IMG/VR virus record: IMGVR_UViG_3300033571_032600
Span: 1-35,831 of that record
DNA from: a virus
Length of the DNA: 35,831 nucleotides
Reading direction: 5' to 3' (one strand)
In this document: positions 17,149 to 33,352 of the stretch, piece by piece
Position numbering within the stretch: the first letter of the stretch is position 1
How the letters are laid out: every line of letters starts with the position of its first letter
Position numbers and translations under genes: made by a program
The notes under the pieces: model-generated
Told to the model about the DNA's origin: nothing
The model's input: only the letters and a program-made list of their open reading frames with translations
Databases searched by the model: none

Positions 17149-17673
17149 TTATTGTAGTGGAGGTGCACCTATTGGAGCAGTAGGTTTAGCTGGTGGATTT
17201 ACGCTAAAGCCAGACATGCCTTCTGGACCTGTTTCTGGGGCCGTAGGAGGCATAATATTGCTTGGTGGTATCTCTGGTTTGTTTGCTGCATCTTGTCTTT
17301 GAACACCAAGATCATTAACAGGAACATTCATATTCTTAAGTATGTTTTGTATTTCTACAACGCTTGAAGCAATAGTATCTTCTAAATTGTCGTTATCAGA
17401 TAATGCTTTAGCTAAAGCCACACCTACTTTTTGCATACCTTTTAAAAATTTTAAATCATCATCTAGCCAATGGCCGCCTAATAGACTCCGGATTTGATTT
17501 ACGATCTTATCTGTAAATCTAACCAGATTCTTAGTACCGATCTTCTTGGCTTCGTCCTGTATTTCTTGTAGAGATGTAAGTATTTCACTTATCTCTTTTC
17601 CAAGAAATGCACGATTCTCCTTAAAAATGAATGATTTAAAATCTAAATCAATATGTGAATATTCATTGATCAT
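17149..17673 (-). CDS. Unknown helical protein with Pro-rich tail
   Basis: 174 residues. The start overlaps the CTP synthase stop (ATGA), so it is translationally coupled. Residues 1-110 are helical (E-I-S-E-I-L-T-S-L-Q-E-I-Q-D, L-K-F-L-K-G-M-Q-K-V-G), while 125-174 are Pro/Gly/Ala-rich and disordered, ending A-P-I-G-A-P-P-L-Q. Similar low-complexity tails occur in the proteins at 941 and 25770. No motif; the position between a synthase and a glutaminase is suggestive of a linker or structural role but proves nothing. Confidence 0.65.
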   Translation of the reverse strand: MINEYSHIDLDFKSFIFKENRAFLGKEISEILTSLQEIQDEAKKIGTKNLVRFTDKIVNQIRSLLGGHWLDDDLKFLKGMQKVGVALAKALSDNDNLEDTIASSVVEIQNILKNMNVPVNDLGVQRQDAANKPEIPPSNIMPPTAPETGPEGMSGFSVNPPAKPTAPIGAPPLQ

Positions 17674-19307
17674 ACACTATCTATGCTTTCATTCTTTCTC
17701 TTTGCTGAATTTTCTATCAATCCAACGAACAAAGGGGAAGCATTTTGTAACCTTGATTTAAACTCAGGATGTGCTTGCGTACCAATAAAAAATGGATGTA
17801 TTTCCTTGTCTAGCTCCATTATTTCAATCAAATTGCTGTCAGGATTTCTGCCAACAACCCGCAAACCTTTAGATTCAAATTCTGGCATGCTAACAAGATC
17901 GTTGTTGACCTCGTAGCGATGCCGATGTCTTTCATAAATGGTTTTTTTCTTATAGTATTCGTATGATACAGAATCTTTGCTTAGCTCACATGCATATGAA
18001 CCAAGGCGCATAGTGCCACTTTTCTTAACAATCTTTTCCTGTCCCGGTATGTAATGAACTACAGGATACTTGGTATTAATATTAAATTCTTCACTTGTAG
18101 CATCTTCCCATCCAATATGTCTGGCAAATTCTATAACAGCACATTGAAGTCCCAAGCAAATGCCTAAAAATGGAATCTTTTTCTCTCTTACATATTTAAT
18201 TCCTTTTATTTTGCCCTCAACACCTCTTACATCAAAGCCACCGGGCACAATCATTCCATCGATGTTTTCAAAAAGCTTGTTTAAACATTTATTGTCTTTA
18301 CAAGCTTCGACTTCGTCAGCATTGATCCAAACAATTTCAGCTTTGACATTCTTAGCAACAGCTGCATGGAAAATAGCTTCCTTCAAACTAAGATATGCTT
18401 CATCGCAATTGTCATATTTGTTGAGAACAGCAATTCTGACAGTAGTCAGGTCTTCATTGCCAATATATTTTTCTACCAAGTCACGGTATTTATGAATTCT
18501 TACTCCATTGCGGGTAAGATGGAACTTATCAATAATCAGATCATCAACATGTCTATTGTAAAACTCAATAGGTACCTGATATACAGATTTTACATCTGGA
18601 GCTTCAAACACTGCGCTTTTAGGAACATTTGTAAGATTGGATATTTTTTCCATAATAGGCGCTGGTATAGGCCTATCTGTTCGGCAGAATAATATTTCAG
18701 GTTGCAACCCGGAACTCTGCATGCCTTGAACAGCCTGCTGGAACGGCTTGGTCTTAAACTCTTTGATAGTTGGTATCCACAGGACAGGAGCTACCAAAGA
18801 AATAATTACATCGTTCCAATTCTTTTGTTTGAACTGCCGAATCGCTTCTAAAAATGGATAAGATTCTGAATCACCAACTGTTCCACCTATTTCAACCAAA
18901 ACAATATCTGCATCTTTTCCTAATTCCAAAAGCCTGTTTATTATTTTGTCAGTAACATGTGGGACAATTTGAACAGTTTGGCCAAGGTACTTGCCCTGAT
19001 CTTGCTCTTCAATTATTTCTTTGTATACAGTTCCAGAAGTAAGGATATTTTTAGAACTAACCTGACAGTTGATAATTCTTTCGTATGTTCCAAGATCAAG
19101 ATCCGTTTCGGATCCATCGTCGCACAGAAATACCTCTCCATGCTCTCTTGGTGCTAGAACACCAGCATTCGTATTCAAATAAGGATCAAACTTAATAGGG
19201 ACAATTTTAAGGCCTCTCATGGCCAAAAGTAATCCTAAGCTTGCGATGCTGACACCTTTTCCGGTGCCACTAATAACGCCACCACAAACAACAATGTACT
19301 TGGCCAT
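17670..19307 (-). CDS. pyrG: CTP synthase, full length
   Basis: 545 residues, the same length as the E. coli enzyme. AGGAAG lies before ATG 19307. The synthetase domain has S-G-T-G-K-G (13-18), K-F-D-P-Y-L-N (39-45), H-G-E-V-F (56-60) and E-T-D-L-D-L-G (67-73). The class I glutaminase domain has the nucleophile elbow G-I-C-L-G (Cys384) and H513/E515 of the triad in Q-A-H-P-E-F. All key residues look intact, so it should convert UTP, ATP and glutamine to CTP. It precedes two coupled genes and follows the RNR genes, a nucleotide supply block. A TATAAT-like box (minus strand, 19348-19343) and AATAAATA (19377-19370) lie upstream as possible promoters. Confidence 0.96.
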   Translation of the reverse strand: MAKYIVVCGGVISGTGKGVSIASLGLLLAMRGLKIVPIKFDPYLNTNAGVLAPREHGEVFLCDDGSETDLDLGTYERIINCQVSSKNILTSGTVYKEIIEEQDQGKYLGQTVQIVPHVTDKIINRLLELGKDADIVLVEIGGTVGDSESYPFLEAIRQFKQKNWNDVIISLVAPVLWIPTIKEFKTKPFQQAVQGMQSSGLQPEILFCRTDRPIPAPIMEKISNLTNVPKSAVFEAPDVKSVYQVPIEFYNRHVDDLIIDKFHLTRNGVRIHKYRDLVEKYIGNEDLTTVRIAVLNKYDNCDEAYLSLKEAIFHAAVAKNVKAEIVWINADEVEACKDNKCLNKLFENIDGMIVPGGFDVRGVEGKIKGIKYVREKKIPFLGICLGLQCAVIEFARHIGWEDATSEEFNINTKYPVVHYIPGQEKIVKKSGTMRLGSYACELSKDSVSYEYYKKKTIYERHRHRYEVNNDLVSMPEFESKGLRVVGRNPDSNLIEIMELDKEIHPFFIGTQAHPEFKSRLQNASPLFVGLIENSAKRKNESIDSV

Positions 19308-29450: not shown

Positions 29451-30263
29451 ATGCATAAATTTAACTTAACAGAATGGCTTGGTGTACCCGCCGAAAGATT
29501 ATTTGGTTTTTCCAATGATGTAAAGGCTAGTAGTCCTGTAAAATACAGTGAAGAACCTTTAGAACCATTGGGGCCATCCATGATTCTAGATGAGTTAACA
29601 TGGCTTGGGTCAATTAATAATAAAAAACCCAATCGTTTATTTGAAAACATGGTCGATTATGGGCATGATGCAGATAAAATGCAGGTAGTTATATCACCAT
29701 TGGGATCACTTAAGATAATTATAAGAAAAATTGGTATAGCTCTTGAAGGATCACATATTCCTATTTGTTACACAATTTACCCTTTGATTAACGATTATAA
29801 TCACAATGGTGAATCGGACGACAAGATTGAAAATATAATTGCCAATAAAATTGCTGATAAATTAACTGAAATTGATAATAGACAATTACTTACTGGTGTT
29901 AAGGATTACGATAAACTAAAAGAATTGACTTTGGAGTTAGCAAGAAATGTTAGGGCTAATCATCCAAAATGTATGCACTTTGAGGGTGTAGTATCGCCTA
30001 ATGAGAATCAATATACAATTTATTTGCAGTATAATGGGCAGGGAGTAGAGGCACCAAGTGCTAGGAGAGCAGAACAATTTGATATACATATGCAATATCA
30101 AAAAGATACAGGTTTAATTCGATGCTGGGCAAACGAAATTACAAGTCCTACAAGACAACACTTGTGGCAAGTTCAGCCAAGTGAATGGGATGAGTATTTT
30201 TCCCCTAAACAAAAAAATTCTGAAATTATTGAATGTATTATGAATGCTTTGTATACCTACTAA
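29451..30263 (+). CDS. Unknown protein, likely virion component
   Basis: 270 residues. It starts M-H-K-F-N-L-T-E-W-L, similar to its divergent partner (M-H-K-F). Residues 30-70 are Pro/Ser-rich; 80-130 are beta-rich (M-Q-V-V-I-S-P-L-G-S-L-K-I-I-I-R); then a helical part and a Trp-containing C-terminus (R-C-W-A-N-E-I). No known enzyme motif. TATACATA sits 4 nt before the ATG. The stop overlaps the convergent gene (CTAA). Confidence 0.65.
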   Translation: MHKFNLTEWLGVPAERLFGFSNDVKASSPVKYSEEPLEPLGPSMILDELTWLGSINNKKPNRLFENMVDYGHDADKMQVVISPLGSLKIIIRKIGIALEGSHIPICYTIYPLINDYNHNGESDDKIENIIANKIADKLTEIDNRQLLTGVKDYDKLKELTLELARNVRANHPKCMHFEGVVSPNENQYTIYLQYNGQGVEAPSARRAEQFDIHMQYQKDTGLIRCWANEITSPTRQHLWQVQPSEWDEYFSPKQKNSEIIECIMNALYTY

Positions 30264-30943
30264 GTTTCGTAGGGAAAGTATTTGTTATAAAATTCCATTA
30301 ATTTTGAAATATCAAAATCTTGTAAATTTTCAATATTTGACAAGTCATAAATATCCTTTTTTATTATTTCTGGAAGTTGTTTGATCCAATTAGAACAAAC
30401 AACATATAAAGGACTAATCTTTTTAAGTATCACATACTTGAGGATATTGCTAGCTTCTTTTTTGTAATTTTCAAATGTATTATCTTGTTTTAAAATATCA
30501 TTTAATGTTTTGGCTGTTTTTTCAAACTCACTAACAACACTGCTTTCAACAAAAGCGTAAACTGCTTTCTCTTGCTTTCTTTTTTGTTTTACCAGATGTT
30601 TCCAAACGACATATCTTGCTTGTGCCTTTTCACCATGCAATATGGATGCATCAACTAATATTCTTTTTCCTTCTGATTGTAGTTTTTTAGCTATTTCTAA
30701 TTGTGCCCTCATATAAAGAATAAATTGAAATCCTTTAAATTCATTTTTTTTATTTGTTACAAATTTCAACATATGTTTAAAAATAATTGTTTTTCTAATA
30801 TCGCCTTTTTTCGCTATTTTGGGGTGTCTGTAATCTGGCAAAAGTTCTCTTGTCAATTTAATCCATACACATGCTAATTGATAAGCCAAGATTTCATCTT
30901 GGGTGAGTTTCAGTTCCAGTGCCATGTGTGGATCGTATTGCAT
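30260..30943 (-). CDS. Unknown helical basic protein
   Basis: 227 residues if started at ATG 30943; an upstream GTG (30976) and a downstream ATG (30925) are alternatives and none has a clear ribosome site. It is helical and Lys-rich (H-L-V-K-Q-K-R-K-Q-E-K), with L-T-Q-D-E-I-L-A-Y-Q-L-A-C-V-W-I-K near the N-terminus. There is no catalytic motif. It is transcribed away from the noncoding region that precedes the polymerase. Confidence 0.6.
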   Translation of the reverse strand: MQYDPHMALELKLTQDEILAYQLACVWIKLTRELLPDYRHPKIAKKGDIRKTIIFKHMLKFVTNKKNEFKGFQFILYMRAQLEIAKKLQSEGKRILVDASILHGEKAQARYVVWKHLVKQKRKQEKAVYAFVESSVVSEFEKTAKTLNDILKQDNTFENYKKEASNILKYVILKKISPLYVVCSNWIKQLPEIIKKDIYDLSNIENLQDFDISKLMEFYNKYFPYET

Positions 30944-30962
30944 TTTTTCATCATAAATGATT

Positions 30963-30989
30963 TGCAAAGAAAACACAACACACTATAAT
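30963..30989 (+). promoter_or_regulatory. Possible sigma-70-like promoter upstream of candidate RNA
   Basis: TTGCAA (30963-30968) and TATAAT (30984-30989) with a 15-bp spacer, in the noncoding gap. The -10 is perfect and the spacer is short. It points toward the structured region at 31085-31340. Confidence 0.35.
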
Positions 30990-31084
30990 GAATTTGTGAT
31001 TTGAGTATGGTGAAGTGTCAACCAGAAAGATGATCATCAAAAGCTGAATGTATATGAATTCAAAATCTAATATATTTGCTTTTG

Positions 31085-31340
31085 GTAAAAACCCGCTGGG
31101 GCGGTACTCCCTGCCAAGCCCATTAGGTAATACGGGAACCTAATGTCCAGCAAAAGATGAGGTGTGCCAACCTTCGCCAAAAACGGCAGGCAGTAGGACT
31201 TCAAACTTCCTACAGAAGTGTTGGTTAAGAATCTTAAAATCGACACATTAAACCCAAGACTAAATCTTGCAAATGTAAGATTTAGCAATAAGGTTTAAAG
31301 AGTTTGGAAGAAACTTATTTAAGTTTTTTTTCTTCCACAC
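31085..31340 (+). ncRNA. Candidate structured noncoding RNA of unknown class
   Basis: In the only gap over 300 bases (30944-31470) there is no convincing gene, but many exact helices. First domain: GCTGG/CCAGC (31095-31099, 31147-31151) closes a three-way junction holding GGCGG/CTGCC (31100-31104, 31111-31115) and CATTAGGT/ACCTAATG (31121-31128, 31138-31145). Second: GCCAAC/GTTGGT (31166-31171, 31220-31225) encloses a GCC/GGC hairpin (31176-31187) and GTAGGA/TCCTAC (31193-31213). Third: TTAAACC/GGTTTAA (31248-31254, 31292-31298) around CTAAATCTT/AAGATTTAG (31260-31268, 31277-31285). Last: GGAAG...CTTCC (31306-31336) with a T-rich bulge, possibly a terminator. Loops are A-rich on the plus strand. 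No tRNA, tmRNA, RNase P or group I intron signature was found. Confidence 0.55.
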
Positions 31341-31470
31341 TCCTTAAGCCTGCCCCCCGGTTTTGCCCAAATTTTCCAAATTAACAAATAAGACAAGACT
31401 TTGCGATTTCGTAGCATGAGTGTGAATTCTGTGGTATTATTTATTTTCAATATCTCTTGAGGATGGCCAT
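31341..31470 (+). promoter_or_regulatory. Leader region of the family A polymerase gene
   Basis: Holds a short C-rich run (31352-31358), then TATTAT (31435-31440) as a possible -10 and TTGAGG (31457-31462) as ribosome site 8 nt before ATG 31471. No gene is seen in it. Replication origin function is possible given its position before replisome genes but no iterons were found. Confidence 0.35.
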
Positions 31471-32787
31471 ATGATTGACTTGGGCAACCTTTCATCTGAG
31501 TTGCTTTCTGCCTGTTCTACAGAACCGCTTATTTTCGTTGATTTAGACCCATCTGATCCAGATACCACCACGATGGTCAATCTGAGCTTAAAACTTAATT
31601 TAAGCGGTGTTAATGGCTTTTCTAAGTCGTTGGTTTTGACTACTGAAAACTATCTTCATGTTTTGAGTCTGTTTGACTCAATATTAACCACTAAGAAAAA
31701 ACCTTTAGTTGGATACAATTTCAAAAACTTATTTTCTTTTTACAGGCGCTTATCAAAGAAGAATCTTTCAGTAAGTAATTTTCTTGATTTGTATTGGTAT
31801 GAATCATACTGCGGTCTGGAATCTTCTCAGGGGAATCTGAAAAAGGCTTTGCAATCTGTTAAGACATTCACTTCCAATAAAGAAGTTTTTTCTTTATATA
31901 AAAATATTTACTCTGATATAATTTCAAAAGTCATACCCGGAATTGAATCATTTTGTTTGATTAATGACGATACTGGTAAGGCGGTGTATTCTAATTACCA
32001 TATAGAGGGTCAAGAGAATGGTAGGCTTTCATGCTCGTGTGACAAAAGGAATGTTTTTAACCCTCATTCGTTGGGGGATGAGAAAAAGCATTTGATTTTT
32101 TATGATATATCATATAAGTATTTTTTGCAATTTGACTATAAAAACATGGAAGTATCTGTGCTGGCTAAATTGTCAGACGATAAAGAGTTAAACAGTATAT
32201 TGTCGGACAATAAAAACGATGTTTACTCCCAGATTTTTTATAGGATCACAAATTTAAAACATCATGATGATTCCAAAAATTTTGGGAAAAAAATGTTTTT
32301 GCCGCTTATATATGGTCAAACCCCAAACGGGTTGGCAAAAAATCTTGATATATCCTTAGATCAAGCGGAAATCTATTACAATTCAGCAAAAAAGATATTC
32401 AAACAAGCTTTTGATTATGTTGAGCAAGCGCAGGCATATGCTCATGAGCATGGTTACGCTGTGGATATTTTTGGTAGAAAAAGGTTCTTTGATTCTGGGG
32501 AGCATTACAAAGCAAGGAATTTCATTGTTCAATCACCATCGGCTTTAATTTGTCTGGAAGCTTTGCTAAAATTGTATAGAAATACGAATGATTTGTTTTC
32601 TTTGGCTTTTCATGTACATGACGGCTATTTTCTTGCGATAAAAAAAGACAAGATTCAAGATGCCTTTTTTGCAGCAAAAAAAATATTGGAAAGCCCAACA
32701 GATTTGATGCCCGGACTTGAATTGCGAGTAAGTGCCAAGGCCGGTTCGAATCTTGAAAAAATGTTTGAAATTGACAATAGAAAGTAG
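31471..32787 (+). CDS. Compact family A DNA polymerase with degenerate exonuclease domain
   Basis: 438 residues, far shorter than Pol I (about 930) or T7 gp5 (704). Polymerase motif A is F-D-Y-K-N-M-E-V (Asp222, Glu227). Motif B is K-N-F-G-K-K-M-F-L-P-L-I-Y-G, aligning Lys269, Lys273, Leu277 and Tyr281 with E. coli Arg754, Lys758, Phe762 and Tyr766. Motif C is H-V-H-D-G with the catalytic Asp384, but Gly385 where Pol I has Glu883. The N-terminal part resembles a 3'-5' exonuclease with lost catalytic residues (V-D-L-D for DxE; N-F-K-N-L for NxxxD). GAGG at 31459-31462. It heads a block with gp41-like helicase, so it may be the replicative enzyme in place of the T4 family B polymerase, or a special-purpose one. 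Confidence 0.9.
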   Translation: MIDLGNLSSELLSACSTEPLIFVDLDPSDPDTTTMVNLSLKLNLSGVNGFSKSLVLTTENYLHVLSLFDSILTTKKKPLVGYNFKNLFSFYRRLSKKNLSVSNFLDLYWYESYCGLESSQGNLKKALQSVKTFTSNKEVFSLYKNIYSDIISKVIPGIESFCLINDDTGKAVYSNYHIEGQENGRLSCSCDKRNVFNPHSLGDEKKHLIFYDISYKYFLQFDYKNMEVSVLAKLSDDKELNSILSDNKNDVYSQIFYRITNLKHHDDSKNFGKKMFLPLIYGQTPNGLAKNLDISLDQAEIYYNSAKKIFKQAFDYVEQAQAYAHEHGYAVDIFGRKRFFDSGEHYKARNFIVQSPSALICLEALLKLYRNTNDLFSLAFHVHDGYFLAIKKDKIQDAFFAAKKILESPTDLMPGLELRVSAKAGSNLEKMFEIDNRK

Positions 32788-32794
32788 GTGTGTT

Positions 32795-33352
32795 TTGAGT
32801 TCTATATACAAAAACTTTCCTATAACATCAGAAGAGTTTGTTTTACTTGATAAGAAGTTTGGCCAATTGTGCTACTATGCTGCTTGGCAATTGACTAGGA
32901 AGAATTCAGCTAATAATCACCAATGTGATTTGGAAGATTTTAAGCAAGAGCTTATGCTAAGTGTTTTGAGGGCTGGGTCATATTATAAACGACAAATTTA
33001 TATTGATAGTTGCTTTGAAACATTATATGCTTCAAAGTTAAGTTTAATAAACAGGAAGATAACAGATCAACTTTTCGACCTTTGGAAAAACAGAACTCGT
33101 CATGGAGCAAATAGGCAGAAGTTTGGAGATCATCAGGAATTTATTTTACAAAAATTGTGCAAGACCAACCTTCATCCAGAAAATGTTCCTGATATAAATA
33201 AAGCTTTGGTGTTTGATACCAAGTTTTTTACTTATTGCAAACAGATCGTCTGGAATGCTCAGCGTAATCTTGGTAAAAAGATCACTAGAGAAAAGCCGAT
33301 CAGAAGTGGGCAAGTAAGTTTGTCAGACCATGATTATCTTGTTTATGGGTGA
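32795..33352 (+). CDS. Possible sigma-region-2-like protein
   Basis: 185 residues if started at TTG 32795, preceded by TAGGTG; the frame continues upstream into the polymerase gene, so the start is uncertain. Residues about 45-80 (C-D-L-E-D-F-K-Q-E-L-M-L-S-V-L-R-A, then I-Y-I-D-S-C-F-E-T-L-Y-A-S-K-L-S-L-I-N-R-K) recall the core-binding and -10 helices of sigma region 2 ('D-x-x-Q-E...R...Y...F'). A later S-L-S-D-H-D-Y-L-V-Y ends it. It lies between polymerase and helicase genes. Alternatives are a replication accessory or clamp-type protein. The match is by eye and weak. Confidence 0.5.
   Translation: MSSIYKNFPITSEEFVLLDKKFGQLCYYAAWQLTRKNSANNHQCDLEDFKQELMLSVLRAGSYYKRQIYIDSCFETLYASKLSLINRKITDQLFDLWKNRTRHGANRQKFGDHQEFILQKLCKTNLHPENVPDINKALVFDTKFFTYCKQIVWNAQRNLGKKITREKPIRSGQVSLSDHDYLVYG

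Follow-up and report, generated by a model that had tools for sequence, protein, structure and literature searches.

The window, by which we mean the whole stretch of DNA analysed here (35.8 kb), is a viral contig from IMG/VR. It encodes T4-like tail genes (sheath, gp15- and gp19-like, baseplate), ribonucleotide reductase, SbcCD, helicases, a sigma-like ORF, and a family A DNA polymerase. A full-length CTP synthase (17670-19307, minus strand; PF06418, E 2e-97) lies beside the ribonucleotide reductase genes. ARAGORN found no tRNA or tmRNA in the 35.8 kb. Directly upstream of the polymerase gene, polA (31471-32787, plus strand; Pfam PF00476, E 1.3e-29), and on the same strand, we predict a noncoding RNA of ~370 nt (30996-31365). 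Its start (~30996) was inferred from the -10 box of a promoter match and its 3' end from the end of conservation, with a core at 31008-31361. An AT-rich gap (31362-31470, 67% A+T) separates this core from polA; it is possibly the site of an RNA-to-DNA switch or of a polA promoter, and either function is inferred. The divergent neighbour on the other side (30260-30976, minus strand) encodes p238, an all-helical protein kept in RNA-bearing and RNA-less relatives. Its structure model is good (pLDDT 82), and its single functional fold match, a phage helicase loader, is weak (E 0.27); this likeness might, at most, suit an origin. As an RNA-specific partner p238 was rejected because RNA-less relatives have the gene too. 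The 185-aa gene after polA (32795-33352, plus strand) is highly conserved in the clade (49-77% identity). It resembles sigma region 2 by eye, is matched weakly by Pfam Sigma70_r2 in 3 of 11 members, and makes a useful marker gene for this uncultured clade.

The structure, read 5' to 3' on the plus strand, starts with the hairpin P0 (UGGU/ACCA, loop GAAGUGUCA, 31008-31024), in which two of the four pairs have changed on both sides between phages. Its loop holds GUGUC (31015-31019), which pairs with GACAC at 31242-31246 to form the pseudoknot PKa; in L003 GUGUC/GACAC is replaced by UUGUC/GACAA. A three-way junction follows, made of P1 (31095-31099 with 31147-31151; 5/5 pairs changed on both sides), the hairpin P2 (GGCGG/CUGCC, 31100-31115; two such pairs), and the hairpin P3 (CAUUAGGU/ACCUAAUG, loop AAUACGGGA, 31121-31145; four such pairs). 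The P3 loop carries CGGG (31133-31136), which pairs with CCCG (31356-31359) at the 3' end of the RNA. This second pseudoknot, PKb, reads CGGG/CCCG, UGGG/CCCA, CGAG/CUCG, or CAAG/CUUG in different phages. The long-range helix P4 joins GGCAGGC (31185-31191) to 31348-31354, and occurs as GGCAGGC/GCCUGCC, GGCGGG/CCCGCC, and GGCUGGUU/AACCAGCC. It is crossed by P5, in which CCAACCUUC (31167-31175) pairs with GAAGUGUUGG (31215-31224). Two regions vary between phages: a hairpin of differing length between the P4 5' side and the P5 3' side (31192-31214), and a domain (31247-31341) that in the fold of the window forms two hairpins, including a T-rich stem. The conserved 3' end CCUUAAGCCUGCCCCCCGGU (31342-31361) holds the 3' sides of both P4 and PKb.

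We aligned the conserved blocks of six phages and counted pairs on this hand-drawn structure. The alignment has 38 base pairs in seven helices (P0, P1, P2, P3, P4, PKa, and PKb), three of which are pseudoknots, and 99.6% of its cells are paired. Both sides have changed in 16 of the 38 pairs, against 6.3 +/- 1.6 in shuffled alignments (0/500 reach 16), and the covariation score is 0.407 against 0.163. When the partners are slid by 1-3 columns, pairing falls to 33-44%. The double changes, the shuffles, and this drop on sliding together show that it is not a chance fold. Because the register of the eighth helix, P5, is not the same in all phages, this helix was tested by swapping strands: duplexes of a phage's own strands average -9.3 kcal/mol, those between phages -3.1, and only one of 5040 permutations, the identity itself, is as good. 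Positions 31060-31360 of the plus strand fold at -95.6 kcal/mol (z = -6.5 relative to dinucleotide shuffles, 0/100 as good), and the minus strand folds less strongly (z = -4.4). The G-U cells (~10 of 226) favour the plus strand as the strand of the transcript. The structure was drawn from the same sequences on which it was evaluated, and seven sequences are few; shuffles and slides correct for this only partly.

Relatives were reached in viral contigs through the window's polymerase. Seven distinct phages, including that of the window, carry the RNA at the same place, directly upstream of polA and on the same strand. Their polymerases are 60% (L010, equal to L011), 47% (L024), 45% (L003), 47% (L012), 47% (L013), and 38% (L014) identical to that of the window, and the RNA core measures 354-449 nt. 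L014 was left out of a covariance model of the P1-P3 core and was recovered by it independently, at E 4e-4; the model finds one copy per phage, invariably before polA. The next gene is always polA, at 75-130 nt, and the intervening gap has 67-75% A+T in 7/7 phages. A pattern scan of bacterial genome contigs gave 94 matches, none of them confirmed by the covariance model and thus due to chance; the window's polymerase has no relative in the same contigs. Host or prophage copies of the RNA are therefore unsupported. No reading frame of at least 35 aa is common to the RNA family (L012 has none), and on this ground a protein-coding reading of the region was rejected. Minus-strand frames are shared only among the window, L010, and L003, whose DNA is most alike. 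Rfam 15 has no family matching the window at the gathering threshold, a permissive search gave nothing meaningful, and 0 of 15 relative loci match. Group I introns, RNase P, and tmRNA misfit by eye in strand order and motifs, in agreement with Rfam and ARAGORN. The stretch is thus very likely a real, conserved, and previously uncatalogued folded RNA, even if its transcript has not been observed.

The RNA appears to have its own promoter. A sigma70-type match (TTTGCA, 17 nt, TATAAT; 30961-30989, plus strand) ends 18 nt before P0, and in 6/7 phages the best match has its -10 box ending 17-21 nt before this hairpin. In each of these six, 2-17 of 200 shuffles are as good. L014 lacks a convincing promoter upstream of P0. 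The promoter is inferred from sequence, by a consensus match at a constant distance; neither its activity nor transcription has been tested. No intrinsic terminator was found between the RNA and polA in the window.

These results can be set against an original prediction, made for this stretch without database searches. It had proposed a multi-helix noncoding RNA of no recognised class and called for covariation and Rfam checks; this held, with strong covariation, no Rfam match, and no shared frame. So did the unusual density of stems (by the plus-strand z-score of -6.5, with 0/100 shuffles as good), the perfect TATAAT box (30984-30989, with TTTGCA 17 nt upstream), and the orientation toward the family A polymerase gene, which is the next gene on the plus strand. 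The proposed extent, 31085-31340, held in part: the RNA is longer at both ends, adding P0 (31008-31024) and the 3' end (31342-31361). Of two proposed three-way junctions, the first (P1/P2/P3) held, but the remainder is no plain second junction, P4 being crossed by P5. The T-rich stem taken as the 3' end is instead a variable internal stem, and the stem inventory had missed the two loop-to-strand pseudoknots.

We used the sigma-like gene just after polA as a clade marker and found 124 relatives in viral contigs, 80 of whose loci were retrieved, in contigs of up to 458 kb. In 25 of 40 representatives the plus strand of the gap before polA folds strongly (z < -3), compared with 1 of 40 inside polA. 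Inspected by eye, the gaps of remote relatives hold RNAs of the same plan with the pairing letters replaced. The P3 loop and the 3' end pair as CGGG/CCCG, UGGG/CCCA, CGAG/CUCG, or CAAGC/GCUUG, and P4 is GCCGAC/GUCGGC, AUGCUGAC/GUCAGCAU, CUAGGUUCU/AGAACCUAG, or a 12-bp helix. The 3' strand of P4 stops a few nt before that of PKb in all superfamily RNAs compared. Strand-swap tests gave 0/20000 for PKb, P4, and P0 and 1/20000 for P3, figures inflated by the choice of the superfamily strands by eye. These elements were also recovered by an unguided descriptor search in 14 of 45 sequences, without being significant in each. A subfamily aligned separately (L171, L184, L201, L212, and L217) has 33 pairs, 97.6% paired, with double changes in nine (0/500 shuffles), and P5 again crosses P4. 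The motif of this subfamily was found in 24 contigs: 19 have the conserved loop, all of them at 427-547 nt before polA, and the other five, without loop and without polA, look like chance matches. Throughout, the analysis is limited: the contigs are metagenomic fragments whose completeness is unknown, each subfamily offers few distinct sequences, the structures were drawn by hand, and the host is unknown.

Other lineages of the clade have something else in the slot upstream of polA. In one RNA-less lineage a 427-aa gene fills it (L019:1639-2922; also L018, partial in L016 and L017). This gene has a weak match, below the cut-off, to archaeo-eukaryotic primases (AEP; PF22548, E 9e-5), and its structure model is too poor to be used (pLDDT 35). 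Another RNA-less lineage has a conserved 387-aa protein with an IHDSI motif (L023:3829-4992, L190:1976-3160, L220:1999-3162, L236:1989-3164), for which Pfam, PHROG, and PDB gave no sensible relative. It looked polymerase-like by eye; profile comparison gave nothing, and we dropped the idea. In L185, L186, L205, L232, L234, and L015, the last 620 nt before polA hold different strong hairpins, several with GCGAAGC-type loops. Hairpins of this type are very stable DNA hairpins.

Strand composition gives information on where replication starts. Since simple GC skew follows gene orientation in these phages, we did not rely on it alone, and regressed the third-codon GC skew of each gene on its strand, with a step term placed at every gene junction. 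We examined the window and the whole contigs L010, L003, L012, L013, and L014, along with two RNA-less relatives. The junction holding the RNA ranked 5/104 in L010, 2/64 in L003, 1/89 in L012, 2/27 in the window, 6/48 in L013, and 1/83 in L014 (Fisher 6.7e-5 for the six combined), and the pooled best step lies within ~1 kb of the RNA. The orientation-corrected GC3 skew goes from ~0 or below upstream of the RNA to between +0.15 and +0.25 downstream. There, genes on both strands show a G-rich plus strand (+0.11/+0.20 in L010, +0.19/+0.23 in L003), which gene orientation cannot explain. The leading-strand direction is that of the RNA. TA3 skew gives poor support (Fisher 0.032). These data, inferred from sequence, make it likely that the site before polA is a replication origin in the window's own clade.

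The association of the switch with the RNA is not strict. The RNA-less G011 and G007, of the same synteny, show no switch at the site (ranks 62/76 and 9/34). The RNA-less G018, whose slot holds the 387-aa gene, has the sharpest switch of all at the same place (1/189), which means that not every lineage needs the RNA for its origin. Remote RNA-bearing contigs show a weak switch or none (3/94, 12/72, 24/74, and 6/44 within 45 kb). For much of the clade, replication likely starts in the region before polA, and the RNA is one of the occupants of this place. Among the functions raised in the original prediction, an association with an origin has thus gained independent support from the skew switch, a regulator of replication genes is not excluded, and there is no direct evidence for a large phage ribonucleoprotein RNA.

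Several known systems share some of these traits. The RNA II of ColE1 is a noncoding transcript with its own promoter, a few hundred nt upstream of the origin that it opens, and it serves as the primer from which a family A polymerase synthesises the leading strand, in the direction of transcription (PMC5043065). Like the phage RNA, it is folded and lies immediately before a site where replication starts, a site that in the phages is inferred. The phage RNA differs in having no Rfam sequence match, a fold locked by several covarying pseudoknots, a C-rich 3' end paired to its own P3 loop, and a host replicon that is a large phage encoding its own polymerase. The T4 origins oriF and oriG are primed by transcripts and have a promoter with an AT-rich stretch downstream (PMC3016281); in being a phage origin with these two features they resemble our locus. 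The minimal T4 origins are ~100 bp long and lack a conserved folded RNA, and R-loop formation there is independent of specific sequence (PMC3016281). The T4 polymerase is of family B. ROOL and GOLLD are phage-encoded RNAs with complex folds and unknown function (PMC12286853). Together with OLE they are, like the phage RNA, large ornate RNAs with pseudoknots, but the RNA studied here is about half their size or less, differs in fold and sequence, and has a fixed site before polA rather than near tRNAs. ROOL and GOLLD are often near tRNA islands, whereas the window has no tRNA. Finally, mRNA leaders and riboswitches also lie directly upstream of one gene and are co-oriented with it. Unlike them, the phage RNA has a conserved promoter match of its own, several locked pseudoknots, and no recognised expression platform, and its site coincides with a skew switch.

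Our first-choice reading, ahead of a polA leader, a trans-acting RNA, and a DNA element, is that of an origin RNA that would prime or license leading-strand synthesis in its own direction, by analogy with the RNA II of ColE1. We give it a probability of ~0.42, and it is thus a leading hypothesis that may well be wrong. It builds on features that are shown, i.e., the structure, its conservation, the position of the promoter match, the site before polA, and the switch of strand composition there. The locus shows some of the features that a transcript-primed origin should display: a position at the leading-strand start with an orientation that follows the fork (in the window's own clade, more weakly in remote relatives), and a promoter match upstream. 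In the proposed scenario, a sigma70-type RNA polymerase would transcribe a free-standing RNA of ~370 nt away from the divergent gene and toward polA. During transcription P0 would pair with the central GACAC strand, the P3 loop would capture the C-rich 3' end, and P4 and P5 would lock the two halves of the RNA together. Folding would thereby put the 3' end in the AT-rich stretch before polA, where the RNA, or a read-through product, may supply or position a primer for leading-strand synthesis or hold the duplex open. It would act like the RNA II of ColE1 or a T4 R-loop origin, except that its fold is fixed. The production of the RNA, its end point, the priming, and the relevance of the fold to priming are all inferred.

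There are objections to this scenario. The switch occurs without the RNA in G018 and is weak or absent in remote RNA-bearing relatives. The C-rich 3' end does not favour an R-loop exactly there; the most stable hybrids with DNA are those of G-rich RNA. Some RNA-bearing phages encode a Prim-Pol primase, and thus a primer RNA is not strictly needed. We had considered that the RNA replaces a primase, an idea that arose from the AEP-like slot gene and the absence of DnaG, Toprim, and AEP-TOTE matches. It was dropped because RNA-bearing phages encode Prim-Pol elsewhere: Prim-Pol type primase domains are found far from polA in G004 (C1:126210-126620) and G006 (C1:66911-67324).

The alternative that survives best is a cis-acting leader of the polA mRNA. 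The RNA would be a 5' UTR controlling termination or translation, and its fold would sense a ligand, a protein, or the polymerase itself. This remains possible, because polA is the fixed neighbour. In all members found, the RNA immediately precedes polA and points the same way, the window lacks an intrinsic terminator between the two, and the distance to the start codon (75-130 nt) is fairly constant. Against it, inspection by eye revealed neither an expression platform common to the phages nor an alternative pairing close to the start codon. The gap is wide for a mechanism that masks the ribosome site, and usual leaders are smaller than this fold, which has several pseudoknots and a 3' end that is locked. 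The skew switch would then be a coincidence, although an origin may simply share the gap. A free-standing, trans-acting ornate RNA like ROOL, GOLLD, or OLE, merely housed in the origin gap, seems unlikely. The promoter match of its own, the several pseudoknots and loop-strand contacts, the phage location, and the lack of an evident protein partner would fit. However, the RNA is never away from polA (19/19 copies), the window has no tRNA, and Rfam gives no match to the ROOL, GOLLD, or OLE families. The weakest alternative, a DNA element (either a replication origin or a site of recombination) that works through DNA hairpins and needs no transcript, draws on the position at the skew switch, the strong folding of the minus strand, and the GCGAAGC-type hairpins in the slot of a sister lineage, but is very unlikely given the G-U pairs kept on the plus strand, the promoter at a fixed distance, and long-range pseudoknots typical of RNA.

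A bolder version of the origin-RNA reading is conceivable: the pseudoknotted RNA superfamily may be the replication-start device of a large clade of uncultured giant phages, where the RNA fold, not an initiator protein, would define the origin and deliver the RNA 3' end to the polymerase of the phage. The slot would have passed to a protein-coding gene in some lineages. The only member of the clade among 50,697 deposited phage records is an uncultured genome of 595 kb.

Outside model systems, only few origins of phages are known, and we are aware of none that a conserved folded RNA marks. In the phages studied here, which have no cultured member, a superfamily of structural RNAs coincides with a polymerase gene and a switch of strand composition. 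Should priming hold, the mechanism would add a new variant to the transcript-primed origins. Transcript-primed initiation would extend from small plasmids and T4 to giant phages if replication is primed or licensed by the RNA. This would also provide a defined structure with which to study what lets a transcript start DNA synthesis; the rules of R-loop formation are still listed as open in a review on T4 (PMC3016281). Even if the RNA turns out to be a leader or to act in trans, it represents a new and widespread superfamily of phage RNAs.
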